Assembly (NCBI GenBank): GCA_014526335.1
Contig: JACTAT010000273.1
Coordinates: forward strand, 434,001-498,000
From: Chrysaora quinquecirrha
Lineage: Eukaryota > Cnidaria > Scyphozoa > Semaeostomeae > Pelagiidae
Length of the DNA stretch: 64,000 bases
Reading direction: 5' to 3'
Part shown: positions 13,601-57,881 of the stretch, in pieces
Position numbering within the stretch: position 1 is the first letter of the stretch
How the letters are laid out: every line of letters begins with the position of its first letter
Position numbers and translations under genes: made by a program
The notes under the pieces: generated by a model
Told to the model about the DNA's origin: nothing
Database searches by the model: none
What the model saw: only the letters and a program-made list of their open reading frames with translations

Positions 13601-14327
13601 TACAAAATGCCAGCAATTCCCTTCCATTTGAATTCAAATTACCAAGGTCTTGCGTATTACGTAAATCAAGAGCCTTATCAGGAACATAATCCTCGTCTAA
13701 TGGAAGAAAGTCATCATTTTCGTCATCGTAGATAAAATCATTATGATTGCTTGTTCTAGCATTCAAGTCACCCAAAATTAAACAATTTCCTAATTGATCA
13801 TACTCAGCACAATCCTCAAGCATGACATCAAAATTGAAACAAAGACCGCTTTTGAACCAATAAGAATCAGCAGGAGGAATATATGCCATACATATTAATA
13901 AATCTTCGGCAAAACCAAAGCTTTCCTTATCTAATTTGCACCATACTCTGTGAGAATTCGATGACAAGATGCTGAAATATTTCTCAATATTTTTACGAAC
14001 AAGAACGGAAATTCCCCCAGATGCTCTACCTCGTACACTTTGTCTAGCACCTAATTGGTTGAATTCACGAAATTCACAAGCCCAGTTAATATTCTCTAAA
14101 TCATGCTTCTCACGCCATGTTTCACTAAAACAAATTATATCATTTTTTTCTAGAATATCATTAAAATTACTATCATTTGAAAGTTTCGCAATTTTATGTT
14201 GTTTTAACCCATTAATATTCCAAAAACAGATGTTTAACCTATCATGATCCTTTATATTTCTTAAAATTTGATTTTCAGCTAAATTGATTTCCAGATCTAT
14301 AGGTTCGAGACCGCCTTGGCTAAGATC
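10684..14327 (-). pseudogene. LINE ORF2: APE endonuclease + reverse transcriptase, three frameshifts
   Basis: The frame opens straight after the ORF1 TAG and stays open. The endonuclease shows CFWNINGL, SETW, CLILGDLNART and FSDHVPVQI. The reverse transcriptase has GKASGIDLITTELLK, FVDFRKAFDSVPH, ARGVRQGCILSPMLF and the catalytic YADDLVLLAE. The C-terminal CX2C...HX4C knuckle reads RYCKYC and HFLMLCPLF. Frameshifts lie at an A run (plus-strand T run 12995-12998), at a second A run (11791-11797) and around 11110-11190. No in-frame ATG exists before the endonuclease core, so this protein seems to depend on ORF1 translation. Confidence 0.9.
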
Positions 14328-15599: not shown

Positions 15600-18500
15600 A
15601 TGTCTTGCATTTTGTGTTCTGCTGCTATATCCAGAGATAAGCGCTGGGATTACAATCTAGTGAAAGATGGTGGAAAAAGAGGATTCGATGTGGAAGAGCT
15701 GCTGCTTGGATTAGGAGTAGCTGTTGTGAAGTCCTCAGCATCAAATTTTGACTACATATGTCAGGCATGCCTTCGTCTCTTGAGGAGAATAGATGGTGCT
15801 CGAAAGGAAGTAAAGGAGCTTGAAGAAGAAGCCATCGGCAAATATAGAGCTGCTTCCTTGAAGAAAGATCCTGCAGTGAAATCAACTTCATAAAAACGTG
15901 CTCTTTTTGCTGGAAATGAGGAGGCAGGGCCTAGCCGTAGTCTTGGAGACTCAAACATGGCCGACCTACAAACACCCTCGAAGACTATTCGTCTGGTTAA
16001 GGGAAGTGCACAGCGAAGACCTTCAATATTACAGCTTCCAAGTACTCCAACGTCTGGGGATGCCCCTGTATCTTTGCCTCCACCACCGTCGCCCATTACA
16101 GAAGCCAACAGTAGTACAAAGGTCTTTGTGAAAATGGTTTGGTCATCACAGACAAGGGAGAAAATACTTCCAGTTGAACTAAATTCTGTTGGCTCCATGC
16201 TTTTCCGAGGGACGTACAAACAGATTGTTGCAGCTGTGTGAAGTTAAGAGCAAACCTTGTTGAACTCTTTATGAAGGAGATTCACAAGGAATGTATTCGT
16301 CTTTGTGGCACAAGAAAAAATACGAGCCTTCTAACTCCAAACGTGCCCAGAAGATTGCTAGCAAGAGTCCAGCAAAGGTAAAGCCAGCTAATTCTACAGA
16401 GGTATCTCCAAGTTGTTTACGCCTAACGAAAAGGAAGATATCTTACAGTTCAAGCTGGAAAACCTTGACATAGAACTGAAAGAGCAGGCACCATTGATGA
16501 GATCGGCCCTCATGGCTATGAGCTGGCGAAGAAGTAAGCTGAAGGATTATGACGTGTTTCATGCCCCATCTATTTGCATGTCAGCAGCTGTTTGTCTGAA
16601 GAACAGGTCAACGAGAATGACTGTGATGCAGCTAATCATTTCTCTTATGCTGCAACACTCTGGATTTATGGTAAGTAACGGAAGTATGTATTACTGATGT
16701 CAAATTTGTCCAATTAAAGGTTTTGTGCAAATTTTCACTCATTAATCTTGGTCTCTTCAAACAGGCTGCACTGCTGAGAATGAGTTCTCTACGATTGGCT
16801 GTCTCTCATACATTTTTGTATAAGAAATTGGATGAGTTTGGGCTCGATCATCTTGAACACATCTTCGACAGTATCAAGAAGGAAGGTAAAGCATTGTCTC
16901 AAGCAACTTGTCCCTTGAATTCGAATCGCTAGAACAAGGTTGTCAACTGGGTGGGCTTGATGATAACTGAAAACCGAATATCAGGGGCATACCTGGATTC
17001 TGCCAAGCCTCCCTTAGAAAAGCTATTGGAAATGGAGAATGGTCTTTGTCTTCCTAGCAACATTGAACACTCCCATCAGCGCAGATATTATATTGCGCTT
17101 TGTCGAAGAATCGCAGTGAAGTACATGAAATGCCTGCAAAACTTTGACGACTGCACCTCTAAACACATCAAGCATCAATATTTCAGTCTGACATGTCAGC
17201 AGACAAAGACTGTAAGAAATTAAGCATACTTCTTTTTGTATCATTCTCTTTACTTTGAAACTTCTTGTATTGGATGCTAATGCTGGTTTTGCAGAGATGT
17301 ATTTGAAATCACTTTCTCTTAAAATGGCCTTCTAAAACGGAACCAAAAATGCTTGAAGCGCGGTTATATCATGCTCTTTTAGATGTTCATATCTGTTTAG
17401 TTGTTGCGGAATACGTTTTTATAATTTTTTTTTGACTTATGCATAATTATACATTTTTAATTTTCTTGATATTCAATAAGGTTTCAAACATTAATATTGA
17501 ATCAAATATATCTTTTTTCATTGCATTTGTAATAGTTTATTTACCCTTTATCAACTGTTTGTATTTCATTAAGATGTTTGCGGAAATGATATATGAGGAT
17601 GAGAATCAGGCCACTGGGATGCAGAATGTGATGACACATCTGCACAGTTATGTCCCATCTGTTCGTGAATCAGACAGTCTAGTCTTTGGAAAGCAAGGTG
17701 AGTAAATTGCTTGCTCCAGTTGGAAAATGGATTCACTCCAAGAGAGCGACTGGAAGGTATACATCTAGAGGTAGCAGATTTCCATAGTGGTATGAAGTTT
17801 TTGCAGGTATGTTTCACATTTTAAAGTTTTTCTAGTTCCAAATTTCCAGCATCTGAAAACGGCAAGACCATGTTCCTCCACTGCAATACTTGACCTTAGA
17901 AGTTAGCAGTAACAATTGATCTGCAGTACTCACTTTTCTATTTGCATGGTACTGCTCATTGTCTTTGGTAAAATTAAAAATACAGCACCTTCATTTAGCA
18001 AGTTATCAGTTGCTGGAAGTTTGAATAAAGATTTTTACAGATCATGAAAGCTGCCTTGTTGAAATTAGAAAGAATTCATTGAAAACTTTTTTATTTCCAG
18101 CTTGTGTATGACAACTTCTACAATCCAAAGGCTACAACAGACAAGTGTACTTTGTTCTCTGACAAAGTGCTGATAAACAGGAGAAATCTTAATACAGATG
18201 TCAGCAAAAATGTCGATGGCTGCAAAAAGTTTTTCTTGCTTGAAGTTCATGCCAGGATTGTAGCAGGTTTCTGCAAGGTTCTTGGACTCAGCAGCCCTGA
18301 CCAGATGTTTGTGAGTAAGGAGTTTGAGGCTCTAACATGTGCTGGCAAGGAAGATCAACAGAAGTTTCTTGACACAATTTCCGCTGAAGTTGTAGATAAA
18401 TTTATTGTAAGATCAGAGGCAATGGAAAGCATGGTTAAGAGCAAGTCTTATGAAGACTGGTTGCTTTCCAGCAACAGGAGAAATGAAGAAGGTCACTTCC

Positions 18501-19279
18501 TGTATAGATCTGAGGGATGTCACAGGACATTCAAATTTGATGGGAAGAGAAGAGTAGAGCATGAGAAGGGTCACAGGCTGCATAAGGAAATTGATATCAT
18601 TCCTCCAAGCCAAGTTACAGATGACATGTTCAGTTATCAGTGTTCACTTTTGAACATAGGAATGGTGATCCTCAACTTCTTTGATGCAGTCTCAGAGGGA
18701 GATGGCCAGCGAGTTGTAAGATGCTGGAAGTTTATGCTTCCTTACCTTAAACATGATGGTGCTCGTAGTAGAAAATATGCGTTGGAAGCACTTTTCATTT
18801 TCTGCCAAATTTATGCCATCTTGTCTCCCAGAGAGGCCCACAGGCTAATCTGGAATCGTTTCCACAAGAACAAAACAGGACATGGTGGCAATATTCCATT
18901 GGATCTTGCTTTGGAGCATTATAACAATTTGCTGAAAACAATTGTCAAACACCTTGGTCCAAATGCAACAAATCCTAAGGTCCTTGAGCGCTACTGCAAA
19001 GCTCTCACTGTTAACAAGGCACTTCTTCAGAACTTTGACAGCAGTTGCGGTGTAATAAGAAGATCTGGCAAGCATGTTGAGGCTAATGTTTCAAATGATT
19101 TGCAGAAGATAGTTAAGGAGGTGATGAAGAATGAAGCCCTTTTTTTAAAGCCAGGTAGAAGCTACCAGTCATTTGCTGGCATGGACGCAACATTGCTTAA
19201 GAACTTCAGTGTGGATGACATGCACCAGTGGATTGATGAGCACAAGAAATACATCAGACTCCATAAATCTGGACGTTAA
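15600..19279 (+). pseudogene. DUF6589-like multicopy gene, disrupted
   Basis: Exon 1 (ATG 15600) has a zinc-binding pattern CILC...YICQAC. In-frame TAA at 15891-15893 precedes a continuing frame to 16239 (KVFVKMVWSSQTREKILP, RGTYKQIVAAV). Next are ANLVELFMKEIHKEC (to a donor near 16378), an exon to about 16670 (SICMSAAVCLKNRST, donor GTAAGT) and an exon near 16765-16887. The piece 16936-17215 reads LDSAKPPLEKLLEME and SHQRRYYIALC. The pieces near 17578-17805 give HLHSYVPSV and RERLEGIHLEVADFHSGM. The last exon (~18103-19279) stays open for 391 codons. 'HLH-YVP', 'ERLEG' and 'DFH' fit the DUF6589 family, which is repeat-associated and of unknown biochemistry. The stop, several frame changes and a probable internal deletion near 16930 make it a pseudogene. 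Confidence 0.72.
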
Positions 19280-25895: not shown

Positions 25896-25970
25896 CTAGC
25901 TCGGCCGCTCGCGCTACGCGCGAGGCGGCCATCGCTAGCTCCTGCGGCAAGTATTTTTTTGAACCAAATC

Positions 25971-26025
25971 GGTACCTCAACTGCGGTTGAATTTCTTCTT
26001 ACTGAACAGCAGCAACAACACGTTT
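25971..26025 (+). repeat. left terminal inverted repeat of the KDZ element
   Basis: The first 25 bp match the right end with two mismatches (T/G at position 12, A/G at position 21). The following ~30 bp match loosely around AGCAGCAACAACA. Confidence 0.8.
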
Positions 26026-26213
26026 GACGGACGGCCTCTAACAGTTTCTATGGCAACGAAGGTCTAAACCGGCCTAGCCTGGTATAGTTGTAGTAGTAGT
26101 GTACTAGTAGTAGTAGCCTGTGTGATTTCGTTTGTTTTTAAATTTGGGTCCAAAATTTGCGCTTGTTTGCTGATTTGCACTTCAGTTAAGGTTACTGGAA
26201 TAACTCGAGAGAG

Positions 26214-29200
26214 ATGGCTCCAAAAAAGCAGCAATCAGAATACCAAAAGTACAAAAAGGCGTACAAAAGATCATGCAAGAAAAATGTACGCAAGGTAAGT
26301 AAGTACCTACTTAGTAGGTAGGCCTAAAGCTTGGTTGCCATATCACAAGATAGACTAGAGCTTTCCTTGATGATGTCCGGGCCACTAGAGCTATCCATGC
26401 AAGTTCAAATTGAGATCCTGGCTTAAAATTTGATACCTATTTTACTAATACCTTGGCCAAAAAAGTCTAGGTTATTGAACCGTAGTTTGGTGCTTTCCTA
26501 TTTTTGACATTTACTTTAGTCTAGGACTAGGCTGGCTATCTAGGCCTACCTATATATATCTACATACATAGTATCAAGTATGCATGCATGGTAGGCTTTA
26601 AACTTAAAAGCCTGAATCCTATTCATAAATATGGACAGGTGTAATTCTCTGCCTGTACAACTCACATAATAAGTGACGAGACTGACTGATTCAGCCATCA
26701 ACAAGGGTAAGTATGAATAATATGGGTTCCAAAGTTACCTATACATTGCTGCAATCAAGCTGTAGATTGGCACTTAAAAATCTAGAGCAGAAACCAAAAT
26801 TTTAAAAATCTACACTGCTATGCAGAATTTTGGATTGGCTGCCCCCAACTACCAGGGTGTATTCAGTGTTGCGGCAATGCTGGAGAAAGGTTGACCAAAT
26901 CAGACTACACGCCAAAAAAACAATAGATCTATTGTTCTATTGAAATAATAGTCTAGGCTATTATTTTTCTGAAAGATCCACACCAGTACGCCAATAAAGT
27001 TTCAAACTCCACGTAAGGCTACATGGAATGCACACTGGCCCAACTATTGAAGGCTAATTAACATTGCTGGTACAAAGGGACCGCTTGTCTGTGAACCCAT
27101 CTAGAGAACCCATTTCAGCTTATGGTAAAGCATATTTATAAGCCTTTGGATACTTAACTGTGCTACCGCATTGCCTGCCTTCTGGCTTGTCAACAGGTTT
27201 TTGCTCACAGGGATATATCAACATATCAATGCACTCAAAAAACTAATAGAAATGCTAATAATAAGACAAAAAAGCTAATAAGAATGAAACAAATCACAAT
27301 TTTTAAGAATAGTCTTGAAATGCTGTAGATATGTCAGTATATCTTGTATCCTTAACTTCAAGATCTATTTCATCTGGTTAAAGTCATTTATCCTGGTGCA
27401 TACTTCTTGAAGGGGTTCCAGAGGAATATGCTTGCTATGTTGCATTGCTTTTGCTCAGTATGTCAAAGGTGAATCATGGTTTCTGAATCATGGTTTCTAA
27501 ATTATACTTATACTTATGCCATAAATAACTTTTGAAATTTCTAAATTCAGTTTCATAAGTGGATACAGAAGGCCAAAGACAAGAAGCAGTCATTACCGCC
27601 AGTCCTATTCATGTATATGGACAAAGATAAATTAAAATTCTGTGGTAAGTAAATGAATGATTTTTCCGAAAATATTTACAGCCATATTTAATAATCTTAA
27701 TTATTTTATGGCTTTATTTATTAGGTCACCCAGCAATCGTAAAAAAATTCAGTGTGTCATCAGATATAATAAGACCACTGGTTGATGCAGCACTTAAAGA
27801 AAATGAAAAGGGTGACTGTTCATCAAGTGTTGGTTTGGGAGCAGATGGTAGAAAGCCCAAGTCACAGCTTAAGACTCCTTTTCTGGAGCGCTTAATGGGT
27901 AAGCATTGGTACTTTATGTTTAACTTATGGTAAAAATTATAATGTGATAGTGAAATTGAAAATAAAATATAATTCTTTGACACAACAATTAAGTCTTGAG
28001 TGCCTCAAATCATGAGAATGATAAAAATTAATTAAAGTTATACAGTTTTAACCCAGGATAGCCAGTGAAATACAAAAAATTGTTTAAATTTGCCAAAAAC
28101 AAAATAAATATTGTCTACTTTTGTCAAAAATCTAATTGAGATTTTTCCTAGATGTGCATATATCAATTTGCAAATCATTACAACGTTTTGTAGCAGCATG
28201 TAGGGGAAATTCTTTTTTCAAAGTGTTGAATTAAATTTTTGGCAAGTTGAGGATAAGGTTGGTGTTTCTTTTATTTTCTGATGATTGTTAATCATCATGG
28301 GAAAATGTTGTAAAATAATTCGATAATTTCAACCAATGCACTTAATTACTGGCAAGTCGAATTGTTTTGCAAATCAGATGCACCTTGACATTTTAACCAT
28401 AGCATCTATATCTCTTTTCAAAGTAATATAGCTTTGCTTTTATGAGTTTTGAATTCATTTTAGCACATGGAGTTAATGCTGTCAACATTGACAATCTGAA
28501 GCAGGCTATCGCAAATGTTGCCAACAATGGTCAGCATGTGCAATATTTTTGGAGAGACCCTGCAAACCAGCCATCTTGGTGGCCCACAGATATCCCTTTT
28601 ATCTCACCCAACAGTCGCCCTGCCCATGGTCAGTAAATTTCATGGTTTTATTCGTTAGTTGATAATAAGAAGTAATGTGTGTTTGTATGTAGAAGATATG
28701 TCGAAAACTATATAGGGTATATGAACAATATAGACTATATGTTTTTCCTTGCGGAAAGCGTGCAGTATGCTAAGGGAATGATCATAGGGAGTACAGTAGT
28801 TAAGTCATTGGATGTATATCTGTGGACAATTTCTGTATTTCAAAGAGCTAGTATCAGATATACATTGTGAAAAAAAGACAATCATCTTATTTAAGATGAA
28901 CCATTGTTTGCAACAACGTAGATATGAATCAGTTACTGTCATTTTGTACTTTTTAAGCAATATCCATTTGTTTCCATAGGAAATTATCTGAAACCCGAAC
29001 AGATTCGTATTTTGGGTGAATGTCTGAGAGCCTTTCTGTTGGATGAAAAGAAGTCACCTGGTCTGGAGTAAGTAAATGACAGTCGTTGTTGTTGTCCTGC
29101 TAGTGAAGAGTCTGAAGCGCCTTTGCTGCCTGCAAAGTTGAACTAAATTCAATTTCTACGGCACCGCAAACATCATGCCGCAGGCAACACAGATACTTGT

Positions 29201-32200
29201 TTCCATTAGATGTAAAAATACCCGCGACTGCCGCAGGCTGTGCGATGGAAACCAGCCTTAACGTATCAATAATGCGCAACTCGACAAAATGTTTTTCAAA
29301 ATATAACTATTAGAAGTTTATCATACCGAAGCTTTCTTTACCAATATGGAATTCCAGTATTGAGGCTGTCATACGTTCGACAAATAGATCGATTTACCCT
29401 TAGTATTATTGTTACAACTCTCTTATCGAAACAAGCGGAAACGACCATATTCTGGAATATCCCAATTTGTAACACCTCACCTGAGAAGCGGTAAAAATGT
29501 TTTAATGTCCTTACTATTGTCAATGCAGCAGATACGCAATTATAGGTAACCTGTCCTAACCCCCTCCTCTCGTCTGGAGAAGGAAAACAGAATAAAGATT
29601 TGAGGATATAAATATAAATACGTATTTTAGCAATTTGAGGTTTATCTTCTAAATATATTGTTGACGAAATTATTCTATGATCAATTGCTAGGTCTGATAA
29701 TTCAGTAGAGAAAATTGATAGCAAAGAAGAAAACATCAGCTGTGGTGACGAGGAAGTAAGTGTTAGTCAAATACAGCTTGTACATATGTTTCAAATTTTG
29801 TAATCGGTTAAATATACCTTTAAAGGGTACCTTTAAAGAAAACCGTTACTTGCAGAGAGAAACTCCGAAAAAGAAAGTAAAATTTCAAGAACCAAAATCG
29901 ACCCCAGTCCATGAGAAAAAAGAAACTAATGAGGTATGTTTCACTTATTCGTGGATGTCAGCTATTTTACCCCCATTTATATTTTCATTTGACTGAAATA
30001 TACAATGCATCTGGTATCCTTGTTAAAATTGCTGTTTTTCTCCTTAGAAATTCGTTAACTCCGAGTCACCAAACACTGGCTATGGTGATACGATTACACA
30101 GTTGGTAAGTACGTGTAAAGGTAAATTTAGAACATCTTTTGTGCATTTTTTTATGAACTACTTATTCCGTATCATACCCCCAACTGAATTTTAATTTTTC
30201 CAGGCAACTCGGTGCAACAACTTCTTGAGTGTATTTAGCACTTTGAATGCTTCTGCAACAAAAGAACTGACAGACTTGATAAAGACAGACGACATCATGT
30301 CAAGCATACGAATAGCCATCGACGGCATGAAACAAAATTTTACAATTGACAAATTGCCCGATGAAGTTAATCAGGAAGACAAAAGGTTTGCATTATTGCA
30401 TATATGCCCAAACCTAGTCTTGATTTTAAAAGACGGTTTTTATTTTAATTTACTGGTATACGTGTGAGTCATTCTTACATACTACTACTTTCAGATTCAC
30501 AAAAATTAAAAGTATCCCGAGAGGAATGAGCCCATTAAAATCAACAGGGGATGGAGACTGTCTCTTCAATTCTGTTGGAGTTTCGCTTTTTGGAACGGAA
30601 AGGTTTGCTCCCGTTTTGCGGCTGGGAAGTGCTTTGTCTGCTATTCAGCACATTGAACATTATGCAGATGACGTAAGTTACATGTTGCTTTTAAATTTAA
30701 GATACTATTTCTACATCATGCACATATTGACTCACATCTGCAAATACAGTAATGTTATGTCAATTTCAATGATATTATTTCGTGAGATAGTGACATATTG
30801 CAATCGTTCCATGGACATTTTTCATACCTCTTATCATCAATACGTTGTTACTAGAGGGGGCGCTTAAGAAAATATGCACTAACTAGAGACAATATTGTAG
30901 CAACAATAAGAGTAGAAATTCATGTATGACCCTGTATAACCCTGTCAATGAACAATTTACAGTGCATGTAAATAACGATATGAAGAGCTTCTCCACTACA
31001 TGTCTTCTTTCCTGTAGTACACAGCTGTATTATCCACTGCAGAAGATGCGATGCAGTTCATTTATAACGTATCAACCGAACAAATATTGTCCAGAATAGT
31101 TCGTAGCGAAAGAAAAGACGTAAGATCAATGATACTCATGATGCTGGAGGCAGAAATATTGGAAACAATGAAGGCGAAAAGCTTTTCAGGTTGAGTATTA
31201 TTAATCGCTCCAACCACAAATTTTGGTACCTCAACTGGACAATGTGACTAAGCAGTAATACGGGTTGATATGTAGGAGACTTCTTATAAGAAGATGCGAT
31301 CAACTTGTCTGATTTGATTCTTGACAGTATTTACCTCAACTGTACTACTTAGACCTCAACCGTACTAAAAGTAACCATTTTGGTACCTCAACTGGACAAT
31401 GTCACTAAGCAGTAATACGGGTTGATATGTAAGAGACTTCTTATAAGAAGATGCGATCAACTTGTCTTATTTGATTCTTGACAGTATTTACCTCAACTGT
31501 ACTACTTAGACCTCAACCGTACTAAAAGTAACCATTTTGGTACCTCAACTGGACAATGTCACTAAGCAGTAATACGGGTTGATATGTAAGAGACTTCTTA
31601 TAAGAAGATGCGATCAACTTGTCTTATTTGATTCTTGACAGTATTTACCTCAACTGTACTACTTAGACCTCAACCGTACTAAAAGTAACCATTTTGGTAC
31701 CTCAACTGGACAATGTAACTAAGCAGTAATACGGGTTGATATGTAAGAGACTTCTTATAAGAAGATGCGATCAACTTGTCTTATTTGATTCTTGACAGTA
31801 TTTACCTCAACTGTACTACTTAGACCTCAACCGTACTAAAAGTAACCATTTTGGTACCTCAACTGTACAATGTGACTAAGCAGTAATACGGGTTGATATG
31901 TAAGAGACTTCTTATAAGAAGATGCGATCAACTTGTCTTATTTGATTCTTGACAGTATTTACCTCAACTGTACTACTTAGACCTCAACCGTACTAAAAGT
32001 AACCATTTTGGTACCTCAACTGGACAATGTGACTAAGCAGTAATACGGGTTGATATGTAAGAGACTTCTTATAAGAAGATGCGATCAATATGTCTGATTT
32101 GATTCTTGACAGTATTTACCTCAACTGTACTACTTAGACCTCAACCGTACTAAAAGTAACCATTTTGGTACCTCAACTGGACAATGTGACTAAGCAGTAA

Positions 32201-35200
32201 TACGGGTTGATATGTAAGAGACTTCTTATAAGAAGATGCGATCAACTTGTCTTATTTGATTCTTGACAGTATTTACCTCAACTGTACTACTTAGACCTCA
32301 ACCGTACTAAAAGTAACCATTTTGGTACCTCAACTGGACAATGTGACTAAGCAGTAATACGGGTTGATATGTAAGAGACTTCTTATAAGAAGATGCGATC
32401 AACTTGTCTTATTTGATTCTTGACAGTATTTACCTCAACTGTACTACTTAGACCTCAACCGTACTAAAAGTAACCATTTTGGTACCTCAACTGGACAATG
32501 TCACTAAGCAGTAATACGGGTTGATATGTAAGAGACTTCTTATAAGAAGATGCGATCAACTTGTCTTATTTGATTCTTGACAGTATTTACCTCAACTGTA
32601 CTACTTAGACCTCAACCGTACTAAAAGTAACCATTTTGGTACCTCAACTGGACAATGTGACTAAGCAGTAATACGGGTTGATATGTAAGAGACTTCTTAT
32701 AAGAAGATGCGATCAATATGTCTGATTTGATTCTTGACAGTATTTACCTCAACTGTACTACTTAGACCTCAACCGTACTAAAAGTAACCATTTTGGTACC
32801 TCAACTGGACAATGTGACTAAGCAGTAATACGGGTTGATATGTAAGAGACTTCTTATAAGAAGATGCGATCAACTTGTCTTATTTGATTCTTGACAGTAT
32901 TTACCTCAACTGTACTACTTAGACCTCAACCGTACTAAAAGTAACCATTTTGGTACCTCAACTGGACAATGTCACTAAGCAGTAATACGGGTTGATATGT
33001 AAGAGACTTCTTATAAGAAGATGCGATCAACTTGTCTCATTTGATTCTTGACAGTATTTACCTCAACTGTACTACTTAGACCTCAACCGTACTAAAAGTA
33101 ACCATTTTGGTACCTCAACTGGACAACTTTGCAACAGCAAAAGTAGGAGAACTTCAACTTGACAACTTTCTTTGGTTTGTAATTTCCCATTTTTTGTTTG
33201 CAGGATTGATGCAGATAAGATTTTTAGCAAGCGTTTTGAAGGAGGTTATTAACCTTCATAACGAAGAGGACATATTCTTTTTCACGGGGATGATCCCACC
33301 TTGTCGCTGCATCCTACCTTCGGACTTCAACTGTCACGTCTTGGCTGTGAAGTCCACAGTTAGTGGACAGTACAACCATTTTGTTCCATTGCTTCATAAA
33401 AGAGGTATGATTATTTTGATGCAGTTTATTTTCAGCATGTTCCAGTTTTTGTTTCTTTTTGCCCTTAAGTGCTTTACTTTTGTGCAATAATTATGGAAAC
33501 AGAACAATTTTCTCTTTGAACATTTTAGCAACAAGAACACAAAAACAGGCTTCGGTTGAGCCACGCCTTGATGTTCATGCAGGGAAAAGGATCTGTGCTG
33601 GCAATAAGAGATTTGGTTGCTTTGTCAAGGATAATGCTGAAAGTAGGAGTTGGATAAAGTGTAGAAGGTGCTGTTTATTCTACCATGCCCAATGCGCGGG
33701 AATCAAGTCTTCTTTCAGCCAAGTAGCTGAATTTCAATGCTGCTGTGACATTCAGTCAACATCAGTAGACTTCAACGATGAGAACTGTGCAGCTAGTACG
33801 TTCCTGAAAACAAGGTAAGTATAAAAAAGGAATAGAATCCGTAGCTGTATATGAGAAGATATGTCTGTTAGTTTAATAATTCCTAAATCTTATCCTTAGA
33901 ATATTTGAGTGGCCAAAGTCCTCAGCTAAGAAACCCAGGCAAAGGGGATTTACCGAATATGCCTCCGTCGGTTTGTTTGACTTGTTCTGCCTACACTGCC
34001 ACGGGATCACAGCCGAAATAGTGACTCTTTTTATCAGGTGAGAAATTCATTTTCGAGCATTGTCACTTATTTGTATCTTTCGCACACCTCGAATAGAAAT
34101 CTCGTAGAAACATTTCCTGTAAGCAAGGTTGCATGAAACAATGTACTTATTTTACAGGCAAATCCAGCTCGTTGTCCTACCCGATATAAATGATTCAACT
34201 TTCATTGGATCGTATGTCATCTGGGAGAGCATCAGCTCGAAAAACTCTGTTGATGAAATGACTGTCGTTCATCGAAAGCTTCTGAGAAAAGACCGTCTCA
34301 TGGATAAGGAAATGTTGATTTTTCCATGTCACCTAAGGTAAGTTCAATTTTCAAAAGGTCTATTTTTATTGTGAAATGTAGACTTTTTATGCGAAGTGTT
34401 TCACACAATCTTAGAAAGGTTGTATTACTATCTTCCGAATTATTTTTTTACAAACTGTAAAGATGAACAACTTACTTTTTTTCTTCAAGATCTACGTGGC
34501 ACTGGGTATGCATTGCAGTTTCATTGAAGGACAATTGGTAAGTATAGACAACATTAATCCTCTTCAGCAAGCAACCAGTAGAAATGCAATCACTAAACGG
34601 TAATATAAACTTTATTTGAATCTTCCATCTATTAAGGGCAGCTCCAATCTACAATCCACTAAGGAACTGCAGGTCATCTTCTTTTTCTTCGCAATAGTAG
34701 CTGGCGTAAGCCGAAGCCTATGTTTGCAAACGAGTTGTGTTGATTGTGATCCCTTTGTGATTACAAGAAAAATGAATAAGAAGAACAGCAGTCAACAGCA
34801 TCTTTTAAAGCAGCCCTGTAGCCCTTCGATATAGGGCTATAGTGCTCAGGGAAAAATACACCCCTCATTTGGGGAACGAGTGGAACACAACACTTACATA
34901 ATTTCTTTTGAATCCGGTCCACGCCGTGGACTGACTTGGAGCTGAATCGAAAAAGGGCTGTAAGAAAATAGCGAAACATAGAAAGCGCATTGGAGTGATG
35001 TATGCTGTCATTCAAATGGATGCTTCATTTATTTCTCTTAAGCAATTGAAACCTTAGCGTCTAAATGTAAATTGTACATGAATATATTTACGATTAACAA
35101 TGTTATATCTCCAGGGTATCTGTTTTCGACTCAATGGGATCGACACACATTCAACTCATTGAAAAAATTAAAACTTATATGGCAGCAGTAACAAAATTCG

Positions 35201-35886
35201 AGCAGTTGCAAGAGTTGCCTGAATTGAGAAGCATCGAATCAAAGGTCAGCACGGATAATTTTCTTGTCATGATTTTCTCTCCACTCCTTTCCCGTTGTCC
35301 TTTAGCCAAGTGAGCTGAAACACAATAGTATGTAGATATGAAATAGAAAAAATACATAAACGTGCATTATATCTTAATATTTGGATGAAACAACCACGAT
35401 GATCGTACTGGACATCAAAGTAAAAGCTTGATATCGTGATACTGGTGCAGCATTAGTTTATTTTCTCGTGCAAATGATTTTTGCGCAAATTTTTCTTTCA
35501 TGGTGCAAATATCAAATATCAGTATTCATTCACCGCCACATACCATGCCTTCTTTCTTCTAGGTACCCTTGCAGAGTAATAGCATTGACTGTGGCCCGAT
35601 GATGCTGAACAATATCTTGTGCCTCGCTCGACGGGTATTTATCCACCTGTTTTGTATTATATACTTTTATAGTTGTCCGTAAAAGGTCTAGTTAAATTTG
35701 TAACTTGATAGGGTCTATCTGAAATCCCCTTTAAGACGGTTACATTGAAACACTATTAAAAAAGACATCCTTTTTTCTCCTAAGGAATTTAAAATTGAAC
35801 TAGACACGATCGAAATAGCTGGTGATTTCACTATTGCAGACGAGACGAGGTCAGAAATTATTCAGCAAATGTTCGCCTTGCAGTAA
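26214..35886 (+). CDS. OTU + PHD-like zinc finger + ULP1 (C48) protease protein, 19 exons
   Basis: Exons: 26214-26294, 27551-27644, 27725-27898, 28464-28628, 28980-29067, 29692-29755, 29856-29933, 30048-30104, 30204-30385, 30495-30672, 31018-31189, 33204-33404, 33529-33814, 33900-34037, 34158-34337, 34490-34537, 35115-35244, 35563-35634, 35785-35886. All introns are GT-AG and phases agree, giving 829 residues with no stop. The N-terminus is Lys-rich. The OTU cysteine protease has TGDGDCLFNSV (Cys ~350) and NHFVPLL (His ~503). Residues ~512-607 hold a Cys/His zinc finger (CRRCCLFYHAQCAGI). The ULP1 protease shows STWHWVCIAV (His ~717), VFDSMGS (Asp ~734) and PLQSNSIDCGPMM (Gln ~776, Cys ~782), a complete triad. 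OTU enzymes cleave ubiquitin and ULP1 enzymes cleave SUMO-type conjugates. It probably serves the transposon; a domesticated host gene is the alternative. Confidence 0.9.
31221..33120. repeat. 157-bp tandem array, 12 copies, in intron 11 of the OTU-ULP1 gene
   Basis: TTTTGGTACC starts at 31221, 31378, 31535 and so on to 33105, which is exactly 12 x 157 bp. Copies are nearly identical, differing at single sites (TGTGAC/TGTCAC/TGTAAC, AACTTGTCTT/AATATGTCTG). Each unit holds TGGTACCTCAACTGGAC, ACCTCAACTGTACT and ACCTCAACCGTACT, which resemble the first 13 bp of the element's TIR, plus the perfect palindrome CTTCTTATAAGAAG flanked by GTTGAT/ATCAAC. Confidence 0.97.
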
Positions 35887-36103
35887 GAGTAATGCTGAAT
35901 ATCCCGAATACTCAAAAAGCAAAGAGACAGAATGTTATGTTGAAAAATTGACAATATAAAGTTTAAAAGTAATTAATTGTTTAAAAGGAGTAGTCACCCC
36001 ATGTAATGTGTGTACAGACTCAACGATTGTTGCCAAAACAGACAATAATTGACACCCGTGTTTGATTTACGATGATTCATTTGAGAACAACATCATATTT
36101 CAC

Positions 36104-36166
36104 CCTACCGTACTGCACATCCGCCACTGTACTGCATACCCCCCAACGTACTGCACATACATTACA
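36104..36166. repeat. three short CGTACTGCACAT repeats between the converging KDZ genes
   Basis: CCGTACTGCACAT, ACTGTACTGCATA and ACGTACTGCACAT lie in 60 bp, ~220 bp after the OTU-ULP1 stop and ~45 bp before the KDZ stop on the other strand. The CGTACT core recalls the CCGTACT word in the 157-bp array. Confidence 0.6.
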
Positions 36167-36211
36167 TGGGGTGGTATTTGGTTTCTAATTCTCACCTTAT
36201 GATATTCAAAA

Positions 36212-39200
36212 TTATTCTGGCTTGAAGCCTTTTCGTTCTTTCGTCAGTCGATTCCTGAACCACAGGAATAATTTACAATGGTCCATGAAATTTTTCTGGG
36301 TCATGTAGGACAGTTGTGGCTTGATCCTTTTTAGACAAGCATTCATTTGCTCGTTGATCTGGCTGTTGATATCTTTCAGCTGAGGATAATTTGCCATATT
36401 GTACCCAAAACTGCAACCTAAAAATAAATCAACCCTCAATTAGTTCAGTGGTTCTCATTGGTAATGCTGATAATTTCATCGCACTTGATCCAAAAGGGTT
36501 TAGGGCTGGGCAATATTTAAGTCTCAAAATAAGTTTCAATACATGAATCAAGAACATTTTTCATGTGGACTCTTCCAATAACATGCGAATAATTGTCTGT
36601 AAATAGGAGCATGACAAACCCGTTTATGAGTATACGAACACTATTCAAAGAAATATAATGTTATGTAATATGAAAAAGAAGAGGTTTCTTAGACGAAAGG
36701 TTACCTACTTGTTCTTGTATATGAAGAAAAAAGAGTTATTTCACTGTTCTTTACTTGCCTGTATGATTTTTCCAGTGAAAACGGTCGACAAGAAACCTCG
36801 TATGTTTGAAAAATGATGGTTGACGATTAAGACAATAATCATGCAGATTACAGGCATTGTCATAGATGCAGATATCAGGAGCTAGACACCAGGAAAGAAA
36901 TGCTGAATAAATTTAACATCTTGCCTAATGGATTTGTATTTAAGCTTACATTCGTACAAGTCTTACGACAAAGATCTTGCTCTGCAAATCATTTGAAATC
37001 AATTCTTGCTGGGATTCTGTGGTTTGTTATTGGCATTGCTCACTTTGAAAAAAGTTGTGTTCCTAAAAATGATTTCCAATATGTTTTCATCCTGTCTCGT
37101 CGTAATTTAATAAATAGAGAATTTGCAGAGCAGGATCAATGTTTTATTTATGATTTCTGGCTGCGCTGTATCCTGTTAGTTGGTTGATGTTTAAAGCGAA
37201 ATCAAAATCTAGCTACGTTTTTCTCATTGGAGAGTACAGAGCTGCTAGAGAACATACAAAGCCTTTTTTGCAATAGAAATATAGCACCAAAACATTCACC
37301 TTGCTGGAAGCGGCTGAAAATGACTGCAAACGGAACGTCTGGTGATTCTTTTGAAAGCATTACTTCGAATCCATAGCATATCTCTAAAATTTTATTGTAA
37401 GACAAATTAATGATGTCGCTAAGTTTTCGAACGTGATTAAAGTGTTGTTGCACTTTCAAAACTTAGACAAAAAACTTACCATGTTCACAGAACATTGTAA
37501 ATATTCCAGACAACAACGATGGATGGCCTTTGCTAATTTTTTTGCAGTTAAATATTTCCTGATGTTTTGTGTGTTTATCTATTCGATATACTCCTCGTGA
37601 TCTTTTTGCTGGTAGCTGCGGCCAGTGTGCAAACGAATTATCTACAGAAGCTGTTTGGCGAGGCAACTCTGATAAGATTCGAAACGGGGCTTGCGATAAT
37701 TTTACCATTTGCCGTAAAACAGGAGATACCTCATGCGGTAATTTACCATTCGGGAATGCCATGATCAGGTCATACAGCAAAGGGAATTCATTTCTTAAGA
37801 GAGTGAGGCTCTGTTCACTTGGTGGCTGGTCTTTCAAGATCCCATTTGCCAATTCGTTAATGGCCGAATGCAACATATTGCAGTTATGCAGCAAACCACA
37901 AATTGGTGATGCACGTGAGATTGCCTTGAAGAAAGGTCTCCAAACCACCGGACAACTGTAGACTGATGGTGAAGATTTTGTTCCTAATTTATTGTCTGCT
38001 GCGTAAATGTGATCTTCTAAAACCAACTCACGATTTACCATGGAGAATAGGTCAAACAGCTCCGGATGATTATCATTAAGGAAGGTAGTAAGTTCTTCAA
38101 ATTCAATGACATCTAATGCTTTCATTTTCTTTGTTTTGCCCATGGCATACCCTTGTAGCAAGCTTTGATATCTTTTCTCTCTTATATAAACCCGATCTTT
38201 GAATAAACTGTGAACGAATTGTATAAAAATGTTTTCATTTTAAGATTTTGAGCATGCTGATTAAGGCATGCGTTGAAAGAGAGCTAGCATAACTTACCTC
38301 ACCCGCCGGATTGCGTCTACCTTTCCCGTTTTAGTTCTTTGCAAAAATGAATCCCATGTCAGCACCATTTCTTTTCTGAAAGAAACTGAAGTGGCATCCA
38401 TTATGACTATTTTCGGCGTATCTCTGCATATTTCACAATGAAATCCTTTCTCTAAATCGATCTCCAGCAGCGCCAGATACGAGTACCACGAATCTTTAAA
38501 CTTATTGTATGTGAACAACCTTGGGTCCATCCCCATGCTCTTGATTTCAGCACAATAAACAGTATGGTAAGTGTACATCGGCATCCTGAATAAGTCATGC
38601 AAACATCATTTAGCTTGAAAAGATGTATGCTGTGCTGATTTAGATACATGCGATGTGTATGTTAATGAACAGATGTTGTTAAATGTACTCACCGGCCATA
38701 CAGAAAATGGTACATGAAATTTCTTAGCAAGTTATGGCTAACTAAAAATGTGCCCATATTCAACATTCCGTCCTCCAAACCATCGTAGTCTACGTTCGAT
38801 TGACAGGTTTCGCAGATGAAACTGGGAACTAGAAAATCAATCAAGAAACATATTTCAGTAAACTGAAAAGAATACCTAGGTCATTGTTAAACGATGCGAA
38901 AAAAGCGAAAATCCATTCATGGATGGTGGCAGCCGTCCAGTAATTGCTCTACACCAGCCAAACCAAGTAATATTTCTTGCTTTCTCAACTTTCATCCAAT
39001 TACGACTCTAGCCTCTTACCACTTTGGAGTTTTTATTTTGTTATTGTATATAAAATTACAGACATACGGCAGATTCTACTTTTATTCAACAGACCTTTGG
39101 CGGTATAAATTCCAAATTTCAGAAATAGTGGGACATCAATTGACATGGACATATGCATCATATTTTTACAATTCTGGCAAATAGTATTTTGCAATCCAAG

Positions 39201-41923
39201 ACTTATACTTCCAGCTGACATGTTTTGCAATAAAAGCAGCTCCTTATTACCATTTTCCGAATTAAATTGATGTGGTATCTTATCTTTTGAAAGTGACTTG
39301 AAATGCTGAGTAGGTATCTGCTCCATACTTTCAGAAAACAATAGTTTCGCACCATCTGGGAGAGATTCACAATCTTTGTGGCTCTGAAGTACCGTTATGT
39401 GTGAGCAACTTGACATGCTGCAGGTTTTACACTGTAATAACGATCTTGATTTTGCAAGAATACCATACGATTCCCTTTCGATATCCCAAACAACAATCTG
39501 CGATGTTCTTGGTAACGAGAAGACTGGGCAGTGCATTTCACAATAGTCTTCTATGGAAGATAAAATGTAAATACAACATAACATGTCCAATGTTTAAGAA
39601 TTATAGAGTGATACTCCAACTGCCTTAAAGAAGCACCAAATTCAATATATTAACAATAACTGAATGCCGAATGTTATCATCCTACAGTCTACAGAGTATG
39701 AACAGAGTATGAACATTGGAAAAATTTGGTTATTCTAGACGAAATACTACTGTATTACCTAAAAGAAGAGAGAACTGAAACTGTGCGAAGTTAACTTGCG
39801 TAAATAAAGACTAAAACAAGTTAGCAAAGACCCATACTACGCGGAGATTGGTTGAAATGGCTAATCAAAGTATAAAGCAGAATTGTCATTTTTTCTGTCT
39901 ATTCTAGGCAGAATTTTGTCTGCGGATGGTCTAGCAAAATCGCTGAAACCATAGAGCACAAAAGAACCCTACTTTATTGTCTTAGTGCTTGCTTTATTGT
40001 CTTAGTGCCTGCACAATTTTACTGTCTTAGTGTTTGCATTATTGATTTTATGAATGTTCAAAGATTATGATTTTATAATGACTCAGTCAAAGCCCTTGGA
40101 TCAGGAACTTTGTGCACTTACAAAATCAATGGTAAAAGTGCTAGTTCAGTGAAACTTAGCAGCTAGACTAAGATTTGGATGCTCTATACAATTTTAGGAT
40201 TGAAAACATCTTCAAAGTTTGAAAATTTCAGTCGTGGTGGCATTTTGTTGTAAAGTTCTATAACAGAAAAGCCTAAATACAATGTGCCCTCCCAGTTATC
40301 ACCATAGTAGATATATGGCAATTCATGCACTTGGGACACATGAAGTATGGTTACACATTGTTGGCATTCAACTAACATACAACATAGAGTTCTCAAGTCA
40401 CTACCAGAGTAACAAGAAAAATAACAATTGTCCAATGTTTCCGCTGTCTATCACCATCAAGTGCCAAAGGGAAACTCTAACACCTCACACAAACAATGTA
40501 TGGTCAAACAAAACTGATTATCCCCTAATCACAACAAACCTTATCAAAATACAACACAGGGCTTACCAGCAGATGTATCAACAAAACGTGAAGGTTCAAT
40601 GTAATTAATATTGTCAAATTCTTCAAGGACAATAGAAGCAGCTAGACAATGATGACAGGGATCCTGTAGTTTCTTAAATTCTAGAAAATCAAAAATCATT
40701 AGAGCAAGTCAGGTTATGAATATCTTTGTGCAGCTAACTAGACAAATAAAAACTCTTTAAGGACAATCGCTTTGAAAATAAGATATGGTCAATGATAATG
40801 ATTCTCTAAATATATTAGTTACCTGATTGGGTAAGGTGAGTTTCATTTGATGTTTTACCAATTTCCATTTGATGTCTACAAGAATCACATTGGTATATCC
40901 AACTCCAGATATGATTTTGAAACTTCAGAGGCTTTCTTGTTACAATAACAAAACTGTTCTCCTAGAAAATATTGTCTTCATTACCAGACATGCAGAAAAA
41001 GGACAGTAATGTTTACTTACCCTAATATGCAATACCAGAAAATACCTTCAAGCTTCTCTTGTTAGGATCTATATCCATGAGGCAAAATGCTGTTAATAAA
41101 GTATTTACAGGTGTAATTCCATCCACTGTATTTAACTCATAAACATAGTTTGAAACAATGTCTATTCCAGTGATGTTTGTCTGAAAGAAAGTTAAGCAAA
41201 AGTATTGAGATATGAACACATCTTATGAACACTGCGCACCACAGGCTATTGTGTTATGAACAATAGGGGTTTTATTTGCTACTGTTTTAGCCAAAATTGC
41301 GCACTAAAGTCCTTTGGTGCACACAACAAAGTCTCCACCCTGACAAATGCAAAAGGCTCCCTAGATTTACTTGCAGCACAGGTCCATCAGCCATTTTCAT
41401 CACTTTGGCAACGATCAAATCAACTCCGAATTAACTTAGGTTGAACATCTTGTCCATTGCTGATTCTATAATTTCTGCATTACACTACAGCGACGAGTGT
41501 CAAGCAGAACATACTTACTTTATCTCCTTCTTCATGTTCATCATCATCTGTTCCCTCATCAATGCTTATGCTGTCCATTTCATAAGGCATATCATCACCT
41601 TTATCATCTGCTGCATCTTTGAATGAAATTTCTGTTATCCCCCTATCCATGAATTTTCCGTGTTGGTATTTACTATCAAAACAAGTATCGTCAGCCATCA
41701 TGACGACTGGTGCACCATCATCATCATTTCTCCTTTTTGATTTCTTTCTTTTTCGCACCCCTTTGGCACCGAGAAGCTCTAATCCTGCAGCCTTAAATTT
41801 CTCAGTGTCTGTAGCTGTAGATAGCTCCTCCTTACCTGCTATAATAACTTGACGGGATTGTCGCTGACACTCTCGTCTCCTCTCTATTTTCTTGAAAGCA
41901 ATATGCTCCCTCCAATCCGCCAT
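36212..41923 (-). CDS. KDZ-type transposase, about 12 exons
   Basis: Supported exons, in sense order: 41923-41519, 41180-41046, 40961-40823, 40680-40567, 40443 to ~40190, 39550-39068, 38828-38693, 38585-38303, ~38150-37480, 37383-37300, 36881-36759, 36417-36212. The N-terminus is charged. The middle has Cys/His clusters (CDSCRHQ, DPCHHC) and a SWIM-like CKTCSMSSCSH. The transposase core shows FHCEICRDTPKIVIMDATS (first Asp), GIFTMFCEHG, ICIYDNACNLHDYC (second Asp), LVDRFHWKNHTGCSFGYN and INEQMNACLKRI (probable Glu). These match the KDZ/HMGXB3-like family as I know it. The exon 11 donor is GCAAGT, a GC-AG intron. Two junctions (after ~40190 and before ~38150) do not keep phase in my reading, so either a small exon is missed or the gene has one or two lesions. 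Confidence 0.8.
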
Positions 41924-41959
41924 GATGATGCGAGTGGTCACCAGCAAGTAAACCAGCAA

Positions 41960-42012
41960 TTAGCGTTGTTGTTGTTGCTAGTCCTATTGAAACTCAACCG
42001 CCGTTGAGGTAC
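41960..42012 (-). repeat. right terminal inverted repeat of the KDZ element
   Basis: Read on the minus strand from 42012 it starts GGTACCTCAACGGCGGTTGA. It ends ~37 bp before the transposase start codon at 41923, so the promoter must lie in or next to the TIR. Confidence 0.8.
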
Positions 42013-42110
42013 CTTTGTGGTAATGAAATATAAATGCCTGCGGAGGGCTTCTTGCCGCTTCGCGGCTCGCGGACGACGCCTCGCGGCAACCTCTCGGGGA
42101 CACGTGCTCC

Positions 42111-42614
42111 GCACGTGCTCTCACTAGTGCTCTCACTACTTCTAACCTCATTGGGAGGCTCATCTGTGCAGATAGCAGTCGGCTTTGCAAGAAATAAGGT
42201 GACTGATGTCATACACAGGCGGGATTTTAGTTGCGATGATCGTTGGTAAAGTAAAAAGTATCAAGTGAACATCCGACGTGAATGCGAATTTCATACAGAA
42301 AGAATGGGAATCTAGAGTGACGTCACATACCAGGGGAATTTTCTTTGGAAACATTGTTGTTGATGGTAAAAAGGATCGTGTGACCTATGCACCTGAGTGG
42401 GAATCTCATAAGAAGGAAATAAGAATCTAGACAGGCGTCATGCACTGGGGGATTTAAAATAGAAACCGTTTTCCTTAGGGTGAAAAGAGCAACGTGAAAG
42501 TCACGTGAATTGTGGATGATATGGGAATTGCCTCAATGCTCTGGTTGTCCAGTTGGTCAGCTGGGCATTTGCCAAGTTCTTCAGTTCCCCATTGCTTGGT
42601 TACCACGTTACTCG
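42111..42614 (+). repeat. second copy of the 504-bp segment Y
   Basis: Near-identical to 24165-24668 in the same orientation. Here it runs on into the CAGTTGC-type satellite, whose first words are already present at the end of Y (TTGTCCAGTTGGTCAGCTGG). Confidence 0.9.
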
Positions 42615-43330
42615 GTTGCTTGGTATCCCAGTTGCCAAAATTGTCAAGTTGCTCAGTGGCTCACTTGCCCAATTGCTTGGTTGCCCTCTTGCTGATTTGC
42701 TGGTTTGCTTGGTTTCCAGTTGCTCGGTTTCCCAGTTGCCCAGTTGCTCGGTTTCCCAGTTGCCCTGCTGCTCAATTTTCCAGTTGCCCAATTGGTCGGT
42801 TGGCCAGTTGCCTTATTGCTCTGGTTGTCCAGTTGGTCAGCTGGGCATTTGCCAAGTTCTTCACTTCTCCATTGGTTGGTCACCTTGTTGCTCCGTTTCT
42901 TGGTATCCCAGTTGCCAAAATTGTCAAGTTGCTCAGTGGCTGACTTGCCGAATTGCTTGGTTGCCGTGTCGCTGATTTGCTCGTTTGCTTGTTTCCCAGT
43001 TGCTCGGTTTCCCAGTTGCCCAGTTGCTCGGTTTCCCAGTTGCCCTGCTGCTCAATTTTCCAGTTGCCCAATTGGTCGGTTGGCCAGTTGCCTTATTGCT
43101 CTGGTTGTCCAGTTGGTCAGCTGGGCATTTGCCAAGTTCTTCACTTCTTTATTGGTTGGTCACCTTGTTGCTCCGTTTCTTGGTATCCCAGTTGCCAAAA
43201 TTGTCAAGTTGCTCAGTGGCTGACTTGCCGAATTGCTTGGTTGCCGTGTCGCTGATTTGCTCGTTTGCTTGGTTCCCAGTTGCTCGGTTTCCCAGTTGCC
43301 CAGTTGCTCGGTTTCCCAGTTGCCCTGCTA
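42529..43330. repeat. higher-order satellite, ~280-bp units of CAGTTGC(T/C)CGGTT monomers
   Basis: TGCTCTGGTTGTCCAGTTGG recurs at ~42,537, ~42,818 and ~43,098, giving ~280-bp units. Each is built from ~12-13-bp monomers such as CAGTTGCTCGGTTTCC and CAGTTGCCCAATTGG. Open frames of up to 172 codons in three plus-strand frames and on the minus strand arise from the lack of stop words in the monomer and are not genes. Confidence 0.93.
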
Positions 43331-56157: not shown

Positions 56158-57881
56158 CTATTGTTCAGGTTTTTCTTTATACACGATACTATCACCAAGG
56201 TTTGTTAAAACTGCACAAACTGTAACAATCTTATCGAGGCTAGAAAATTCAGAGTTATCTTTTTCGTCAGAGCGAGATTTGATCATTGTTATTGGTAGTG
56301 GTCCCCTGAGTATTGTAAATCTCTTCTTTATTAAGCCAATGACTCTTTCAATGTGAATTCTGATTGAAGCGATTTGTCGAGTCGTTTCTACCTCTTTTGC
56401 TGAAAGTTGGTTTTTACCCTTGGTGAAACTGGGTATTATTAACTCCACTCCACAGCCTGCTGCAAATTCATCTACTAACGTAAACCCACGGTCAGCAAGA
56501 ATTTGATCCCTGTGATGATGGAACTTTTGGGAAATGAGTCCTGAATTCTTTACCAATTCAACATCTGACACACGACCACCCCAAGCCTTTGATAGAAATG
56601 AAATTGAACCATGAGGTGTACAGGCAATAAGAAACTTGGCAGTTGAGTGCTTTTTATAATTCGAATACACTTGAGCTCGAGCCTTCAAGTTCTTAGGTCT
56701 ATGTATAAAGATTTCTGTGCAGTCAATAATACCAGTCAATCTTGGGAAGTACTGACTAAAAACAGGGGGCAAGGTTTTCATACTTGCTTCATGGTCTGGC
56801 CATGCAATTAAGAATGACATCTTGAAATAAATGACATCAACCCACTTCCAAAACATAGAATGTAAAGTTGTTTTAGATGCATTAAAGAGATCTGCAAGTG
56901 TTGTAAATTGCAAATCTAATCGAAGTTTTATAAGAGTCATCAGCAGTTGATTTTCAGGAGAGAGTTTTTCCTTTGATGTCTCTTGCAGAAACCTTTTGGA
57001 AAAATTAAAAACTACAGTAAATTTCTCTGGTGTTATTCCAGTATAATAAATGAACTTCTCAGGCTTTGTTTGGAGAGAGTTACAGTTGAAAAATTTTTCA
57101 TTCAATTTTTTCACTTCCTGTGTGAGTTTTTCTTTCTCTCTCTTTAAGTTTTCTATTTCAACCACATATCTCTGCTCCATTGTCAATTCTTCAATATCCT
57201 CATCCTTGGGCTCAGTTGTTTGCAGATTCTCTTCACTTGAATTTTGATCATTTGTTGGAATGCAATCCATATTCTCTTCAAGTGACGTGCTATTTGTTCT
57301 TTTCTTTTTACATGGTTTTTCAAGGCTTTCTTTTTGCTTTTCATTCCTTCTTTTTGCTGCATTAAAGCGGGATAATTTCCGTTTGTCCTTCTCTGAGTTG
57401 CCTTGGACATAAACAAATATCGAAGGAACATAGTCTGGATGTTGAGGATCTCTAACAGCTCTCCCTAAAATTGAGGAAAATTTGCACTAATGTTTTAAAC
57501 CTGCTGTGCTTCAGAAATTCTTCACTTCTCCTTTAATGACCATCATGATGCACGAAAGTAAGTTTAGTTGTAGCTTTTCGTGAAAACAGATACCCGAGAG
57601 TAGCCTTGGAAAAGTAGGACTAAGTTAAAATAAAATCAAGTAGGACTGAGTAAAAGTAAAAGTAGGATCAAGTAAAGCAAACCTGTTATAAAATGTTTCC
57701 CACAAAGATAGACGTTCTTGCCTTTAGGAATCCAAGGAGATCCATCTTTGTTCTGCCGCTTGCATGCATTTATCCATCGCTGTCGGCGAGCAGGATCATT
57801 ATTTGGGAAGCGGAAAAAACCTGGTTTATCCTCCATTCGGTTGTGGTTTGTGCAACCATATGCAGCACAGCTAAGAGGCAT
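56158..57881 (-). CDS. intact THAP-DDE (DDE_Tnp_4) transposase, two exons
   Basis: Exon 1 is 57881-57683 and exon 2 is 57464-56158. The 218-bp GT-AG intron falls inside the THAP domain. Total 1506 nt give 501 residues with no lesion. THAP: CAAYGC, GFFRFPNND, RQRWINACKR, LCGKHFITG, then YVPSIF, with all four zinc ligands present. A basic and coiled-coil linker follows (EIENLKREKEKLTQEVKKL). DDE core: GIIDCTEIFIH (Asp), ILADRGFTLVDEF (Asp) and IRIHIERVIGLIKKRF (Glu). The THAP domain would bind the element ends and the DDE core would cut and join DNA. It converges tail to tail with the YqaJ gene, ~137 bp between the stops. Confidence 0.92.

Follow-up and report, generated by a model that had tools for sequence, protein, structure and literature searches.

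The KDZ superfamily of DNA transposons (Kyakuja-Dileera-Zisupton, PF18758/PF18717) is little tested, and its target duplications are 7-8 bp long. Zisupton elements are large and multi-exon and have inverted ends; their target duplications are 8 bp (PMC12730594), and Zisupton families of Pristionchus have 18 and 31 exons (PMC9297572). The fungal Kyakuja elements show 7-bp target duplications and CA...TG tips and are described as lacking terminal inverted repeats (PMC12730594). Transposon-borne OTU, ULP1 and PHD domains occur in Ginger1 and Mutator-like elements. Ginger1 carries OTU, or Ulp1, or Ulp1 with PHD, on the transposase itself, and a role of domains of this type in transposition has been proposed (PMC2836005). 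Galileo foldback elements contain tandem units with extra transposase sites, Tetris foldback elements show repeat growth into satellite, and piggyBat has palindromes in its end and an extra end site which restrains its own transposon.

Here we describe a KDZ-superfamily DNA transposon of 16,089 bp at positions 25948-42036 of the window, the 64,000-nucleotide stretch of Chrysaora quinquecirrha DNA under analysis (contig C272). It reads 5'-CAAGTATT...TATAAATG-3', with its ends set at the divergence points of three left and four right ends in the genome. In the 328-Mb assembly (740 contigs), the left 330 bases of the element as first delimited are found in at least three places (the window, C320 and C102) and the right 337 bases in at least four (the window, C320 and two on C102). 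The right end at C102:2317515 is counted as a segmental duplicate and not as a fourth insertion, since its flank is similar to that of the other C102 copy. In the aligned copies (window, C320, C102) the flanks of the three insertions are unrelated. The shared sequence begins at CAAGTATT and stops on the right at ...AATG, the right end being TATAAATG in three places and AATAAATG in one C102 place. Each of the three insertions has its own perfect 7-bp target duplication, CCTGCGG in the window (25941-25947 and 42037-42043), AAAAATC on C320 and AAATAGT at C102:2734040-2754708; an eighth duplicated base finds no match in two of the three. Searched with up to two mismatches, ACCTCAACNGCGGTTGA matches the element's two ends exclusively (three rows, two of them one right-end site on both strands) and gives no match in 100 shuffles, so that the end motifs of the element are not due to chance.

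A preliminary description, made from the letters of the window, had proposed a ~16-kb KDZ transposon with matching inverted ends at 25971 and 42012. The transposon itself is borne out by further copies that share its ends and have target duplications of their own, and the inverted ends do exist, but not at these positions: no fitting target duplication lies there, the other copies begin 23 bp further out on the left, ahead of the GGTACC taken as the start, and 25971 and 42012 mark a subterminal motif 23-24 bp inside the true termini. It was the alignment with other genomic copies, a check which that description had itself suggested, that gave the termini 25948 and 42036 together with the 7-bp duplications. 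The lack of any further copy with the same ends, which it had named as evidence against a transposon, is not what the genome holds, as the counts of left and right ends above attest. The 7-bp duplications at three insertions fall within the range of the superfamily. With Kyakuja the element shares this length and the CA...TG tips, a likeness of description and not of tree placement, but it differs in having palindrome-bearing inverted ends. Like Zisupton it is large and multi-exon with inverted ends; unlike Zisupton its family makes 7-bp duplications, whereas a single relative on C124 fits 8.

The transposase gene lies on the minus strand (36212-41923) and encodes 937 aa in 11 exons (41923-41519, 41180-41046, 40961-40823, 40680-40567, 39550-39095, 38828-38693, 38585-38298, 38207-37480, 37383-37300, 36881-36759 and 36417-36212), as read by splice joining, relatives and DDE conservation. 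Nine introns are GT-AG and one, after exon 10, is GC-AG; the reading is free of lesions. We found 31 related proteins, among whose named hosts are Rhopilema, Clytia, Argopecten, Mytilus, Ostrea and Branchiostoma. The catalytic residues are D525, kept in all 31 relatives, D836 (28 of the 28 without a gap there) and E892 (27 of 27). We take D525-D836-E892 to be the DDE triad, from this conservation and from the motifs typical of the family. Concerning the family assignment, the Pfam KDZ model does not match the element's own transposase at E<=1, in which it departs from the superfamily, yet several of the 31 relatives carry precomputed PF18758 or PF18717. Nine proteins were rescanned with Pfam, eight of them transposase relatives. 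Three of these eight (P0003, P0009 and P0013, 35-37% identical to the transposase) pass the PF18758 cut-off, and P0001, at 47% identity, falls just short of it. Homology of the transposase to KDZ (PF18758) is therefore indicated through its relatives, although the profile check suggested at the outset fails on the protein itself. In KDZ proteins a CxC cysteine cluster lies N-terminal to the catalytic core; Cys-rich stretches are present in this transposase, and PF18717 matches occur in the relatives alone, one above the cut-off on rescan. The relatives with KDZ and CxC4 domains, the DDE triad and the intron-rich gene are all traits shared with the superfamily. The KDZ type, the open reading and the Asp-Asp-(Glu) motifs of the preliminary description stand up; its count of ~12 exons is corrected to 11.

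On the plus strand, converging with the transposase gene, lies an OTU-PHD-ULP1 gene of 19 exons and 829 aa (26214-35886), read by splice joining and by Pfam and solved-structure matches. Its exons are 26214-26294, 27551-27644, 27725-27898, 28464-28628, 28980-29067, 29692-29755, 29856-29933, 30048-30104, 30204-30385 and 30495-30672 (exons 1-10), and 31018-31189, 33204-33404, 33529-33814, 33900-34037, 34158-34337, 34490-34537, 35115-35244, 35563-35634 and 35785-35886 (exons 11-19). All 18 introns are GT-AG and no lesion was found, in agreement with the 19 exons and 829 residues first proposed. The protein matches the C48 peptidase family (PF02902, E 5.8e-14) in Pfam and, among solved structures, SENP5 (E 6.5e-8). 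The region that aligns with SENP5 and with a Ulp1-like protease contains HW, FDS and Q..DCG-type residues, presumably the His-Asp-Gln-Cys catalytic residues of C48. By these matches the accessory protein is classed as a ULP1/C48 peptidase with a predicted His-Asp-Gln-Cys fold. A PHD finger is added by a match to the BPTF PHD (E 0.0014, solved structures). The OTU match (PF02338) is weak, with an E of 0.047 below the Pfam cut-off; hence of the two peptidase families initially named, C48 is upheld by its profile and OTU falls short. As to the Asp-Cys-His of OTU deubiquitinases, a weak alignment to VCPIP1 (E 0.24) takes in GDGDC and NHFVPL. The protein collection gave one OTU homologue, a death-domain protein from amphioxus that includes an OTU-like stretch, and a second search of it with the OTU region gave no match. 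By this second gene and by internal arrays matched to its ends, the element differs from the KDZ superfamily. It differs from Ginger1 in carrying all three domains in one separate, converging gene.

The window copy and the copy on C320 are separated by 95 substitutions in 14,484 aligned bases (0.66%) and by 17 gaps. Outside the array, coding (33/5162, 0.0064) and non-coding (56/8828, 0.0063) divergence are equal, so that the two copies taken together give no sign of selection. On C320 both genes are broken. The transposase has a premature stop, has lost a splice acceptor and suffers from a deletion of 134 bp into its last exon; in the OTU gene a 29-bp deletion runs across a splice donor. With C102 as outgroup, 7,019 sites of the right half place 21 changes on the window branch and 32 on the C320 branch. 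Coding changes, for the right half only, are 3 replacement and 4 silent on the window branch versus 14 and 2 on that of C320 (Fisher p 0.045, from small numbers), which is compatible with constraint on the lineage of the window copy until recently. The window copy, although it has changed, is open in both genes, and decay seems less advanced on its branch than on that of C320. The interior of the copy at C102:2734040-2754708 is filled by other mobile DNA; open frames inside it look Polinton/Maverick-like (polymerase, integrase), together with what looks like a small DDE transposase. These data are best explained by a complete, two-gene, cut-and-paste transposon that has moved in the recent past. 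The apparent intactness noted beforehand is borne out by the two lesion-free genes; the end positions and the ~12 transposase exons are corrected.

A 374-aa transposase-core query gave at least 124 exon-level matches in the genome (110 of 238 candidates scored), and an OTU-ULP1 query at least 85 (103 of 148 candidates scored). Matches of both genes lie within 15 kb of each other at 11 places, on C272, C320, C102, C124, C294, C354, C193, C379, C146 (two) and C157, and converge in all 11, with gaps of 1.7-6.4 kb; these places are copies of a few families and not 11 independent events. The DNA of C157 and of one C146 place is identical over the stretch compared (C146:2033001-2038500 versus C157:1553141-1558640, 100% over 5.5 kb), which may mean that the assembly contains this stretch of contig twice or that it was duplicated very recently; because of this identity, C157 and C146 (2.03 Mb) are of no use in fixing ends. 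OTU-ULP1-like matches without a scored transposase match near were seen on C298, C439, C576 and C386 (2.14 Mb), in weak form on C290 and C279, and in clusters of many matches on C199 (15-123 kb) and C424 (684-849 kb). The clusters possibly represent a host gene family or another mobile family and are a candidate donor or descendant of the transposon gene. Many transposase matches, among those scored, likewise have no OTU match near. Evidence from an absent partner is soft either way, scoring having covered 110 of the 238 transposase candidates and 103 of the 148 OTU candidates. Because all 11 pairs converge and matches of both genes also occur singly, convergent pairing seems to be characteristic of one KDZ lineage, with the OTU-ULP1 gene existing apart as well. 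Occurrence of the two genes apart from each other, raised beforehand for related species as a point against the transposon, is partly seen within this genome, among the scored matches.

Two readings of the locus other than a complete two-gene transposon can be weighed on these data. A dead or domesticated two-gene locus, with no mobile element, would agree with the low copy number (three insertions found) and with the broken or filled state of the other copies. It is very improbable in view of separate insertions with perfect target duplications and of a copy elsewhere that lies so few substitutions away. The OTU-ULP1 gene may, alternatively, belong to a host family captured by the transposon, or donated from it, and be dispensable for transposition. 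The clusters on C199 and C424 and the many KDZ matches without an OTU match nearby, both among the matches scored, are what one would expect of such a gene, which we regard as possible but somewhat doubtful, as the pair converges at every co-located place, in families whose transposases are ~33-81% alike.

A new observation is that a 14-bp palindrome, TCMAC-N4-GTKGA, is present in both inverted ends, at a distance of 29 bp from the tip. The left palindrome is TCAACTGCGGTTGA (25977-25990, plus strand), the right one TCAACGGCGGTTGA as read on the minus strand (41994-42007). Both are terminal and are the only two in the 64-kb window, versus 0.23 expected (60 shuffles). New as well is a tandem array of 12.1 units of 157 bp (31220-33126, plus strand) within intron 11 (31190-33203) of the OTU gene, 5.2 kb from the nearer end of the element, and it does not figure in the preliminary description. 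Against an expectation of 0.19, the window has 38 occurrences of the left-end core ACCTCAACYG: one is at the left end, and the other 37 lie in the array, at 31228-33121 and on one strand. The units are 98% alike (7 distinct among 12), contain three ACCTCAACYG each, all on the plus strand, and agree with the left-end stretch AACCA..T.GGTACCTCAACTG at 19 of 22 bases. On C320 the array has nine units fewer and 10 motifs, and the left-end core of that copy is altered.

For the match between array and end, three families were compared, those of the window, C124 and C379; the transposases of the paired families are ~33-81% alike exon by exon at the loci compared. At C124:8163456-8187382 the transposase is 36-72% alike by exon, with OTU-ULP1 converging. 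One array (174 bp x 17.4) lies just 3' of this transposase and another (170 bp x 11.3) between OTU-gene matches. The ends carry TCCACCCTGGTGGA and TCCACCATGGTGGA, the sole such palindromes in 26 kb (2 versus 0 in shuffles), each 30 bp from tips flanked by the 8-bp GGTTTTTG; this is a single copy, and its ends were recognised through the palindrome pair, a blind duplication search having failed to single them out. On C379, one array of 360 bp x 9.9 and another of 351 bp x 2.1 lie in the interval that separates the two converging gene matches. A palindrome, TCCACAGCTGTGGA, stands at the transposase-side end, the one end seen for this family. C146:5.74 Mb was considered as a fourth, array-less family and rejected: it belongs to the C379 family, at 97-99% identity and with the single palindrome of that family (1 versus 0.07 expected), and has lost its array, along with a 3' portion of its transposase, to a deletion. 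C294 and C354 have a 174-bp array 3' of the transposase. Arrays with units of at least 40 bp were found in 8 of 16 partly overlapping loci of ~2-4 kb, all 8 in the C124 and C379 groups.

All palindromes of the three families fit the 14-bp TCMAC-N4-GTKGA. Half-sites per unit were counted against 1000 dinucleotide shuffles, with p-values that are guides only, the motif having been chosen after seeing the ends. The 157-bp unit of the window has five TCAAC (0.44 expected, p 0.001) and no TCCAC. Conversely, TCCAC occurs twice in the 174-bp unit of C124 (0.15 expected, p 0.005) and three times in the 360-bp unit of C379 (0.50 expected, p 0.009), both small counts, and TCAAC in neither. The 170-bp unit of C124 lacks its own half-site TCCAC and has one TCAAC (p 0.29), which leaves three of the four tested units with a match to their own end. 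C124 and C379 share the five-base half TCCAC and can be told apart only by its extensions; the longer halves CCTCAAC, TCCACC and TCCACAG occur 3, 2 and 2 times in their own unit and in none of the other units tested. Otherwise the similarity among the four units is about that of shuffles (best scores 22-37 versus 95th percentiles of 33-37), and only the 174/360-bp pair slightly exceeds its 95th percentile, below the shuffle maximum. At the level of sequence, these comparisons show that array and end co-vary across three families in units that are otherwise seemingly unrelated. Internal arrays matched to the ends of a KDZ element look new: among the matches listed from the open-licence literature, none concerned KDZ with OTU/ULP1 or with such arrays or combined OTU with Zisupton, and the terms OTU and ULP1 are absent from PMC12730594. 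In Galileo, Tetris and piggyBat the comparable features sit in terminal regions, whereas the array of this element lies in an intron of the accessory gene and those of its relatives between the genes.

We consider it probable, from the sequences compared, that this is a complete two-gene KDZ element whose transposase reads the palindrome, whose accessory protein strips ubiquitin and SUMO and whose arrays are extra transposase sites. A dimer of the DDE transposase would read TCMAC-N4-GTKGA 29 bp from each tip and, by what is known of the family, would cut at the tip and insert by DDE strand transfer with a 7-bp stagger. The OTU-PHD-ULP1 protein would clear the transposition complex, or chromatin silencing factors, of ubiquitin and SUMO. 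The arrays, we infer, are sites to which transposase binds, and they would serve to regulate transposition or to assist it. As extra binding sites they could titrate transposase, a form of self-limitation; gathering transposase near the ends would be a less likely role. There is precedent in piggyBat, where an extra transposase site restrains its own transposon, and in Galileo, with extra sites in its tandem units. Tentatively, and as a conjecture that could well fail, we propose for this KDZ lineage that internal arrays of its own terminal half-site re-evolve with the palindrome, as a copy-number-tunable transposase sink or sensor by which an element sets its own activity.

It is quite possible, though we lean slightly the other way, that the arrays have no role and are selfish minisatellites, a terminal stretch copied inward and grown by unequal exchange. 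DNA transposons can seed satellites (PMC4079207 and PMC12628747), copy number differs between near-identical copies (12.1 units in the window, nine fewer on C320), one C379-family copy has no array, and the second C124 array lacks its own half-site. Such a passive origin from the terminus must, however, recur each time: each of three families that differ in unit sequence and array position carries its own terminal half-site, and the longer halves of the other families are absent from each unit. Control of the accessory gene offers a further role for the arrays that is not a sink, bound transposase blocking or enhancing the splicing or transcription of OTU-ULP1. The window array does lie inside an intron of that gene, and on C124 and C379 arrays lie beyond the 3' end of the transposase, in the interval between the two converging gene matches; such control is nevertheless unlikely, since array position is not conserved. 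With transposase-binding arrays as the preferred reading, the locus provides a large two-gene KDZ element open in both genes, with exact ends, a target duplication and a candidate transposase recognition site. KDZ transposition, the role of the deubiquitinase/deSUMOylase and self-regulation by internal arrays of candidate binding sites now become directly testable.

The window contains further repeats and mobile DNA. Just right of the element, at 42528-43329, is a minisatellite of 280 bp x 2.9 with short TTGCCCAGTTGCTCGG-like units. Reverse transcriptase frames, each split over frames, are found at 5351-7191, which look Penelope-like, and at 11111-14327, a LINE with an endonuclease frame. A 391-aa frame with DUF6589 (E 5.3e-26) lies at 18104-19279 (plus strand), a 451-aa frame with a YqaJ/viral alkaline exonuclease-type recombinase domain at 54594-55949 (plus strand), and two DDE_Tnp_4 transposase frames at 56158-57270 (minus strand) and 61570-62463 (plus strand).
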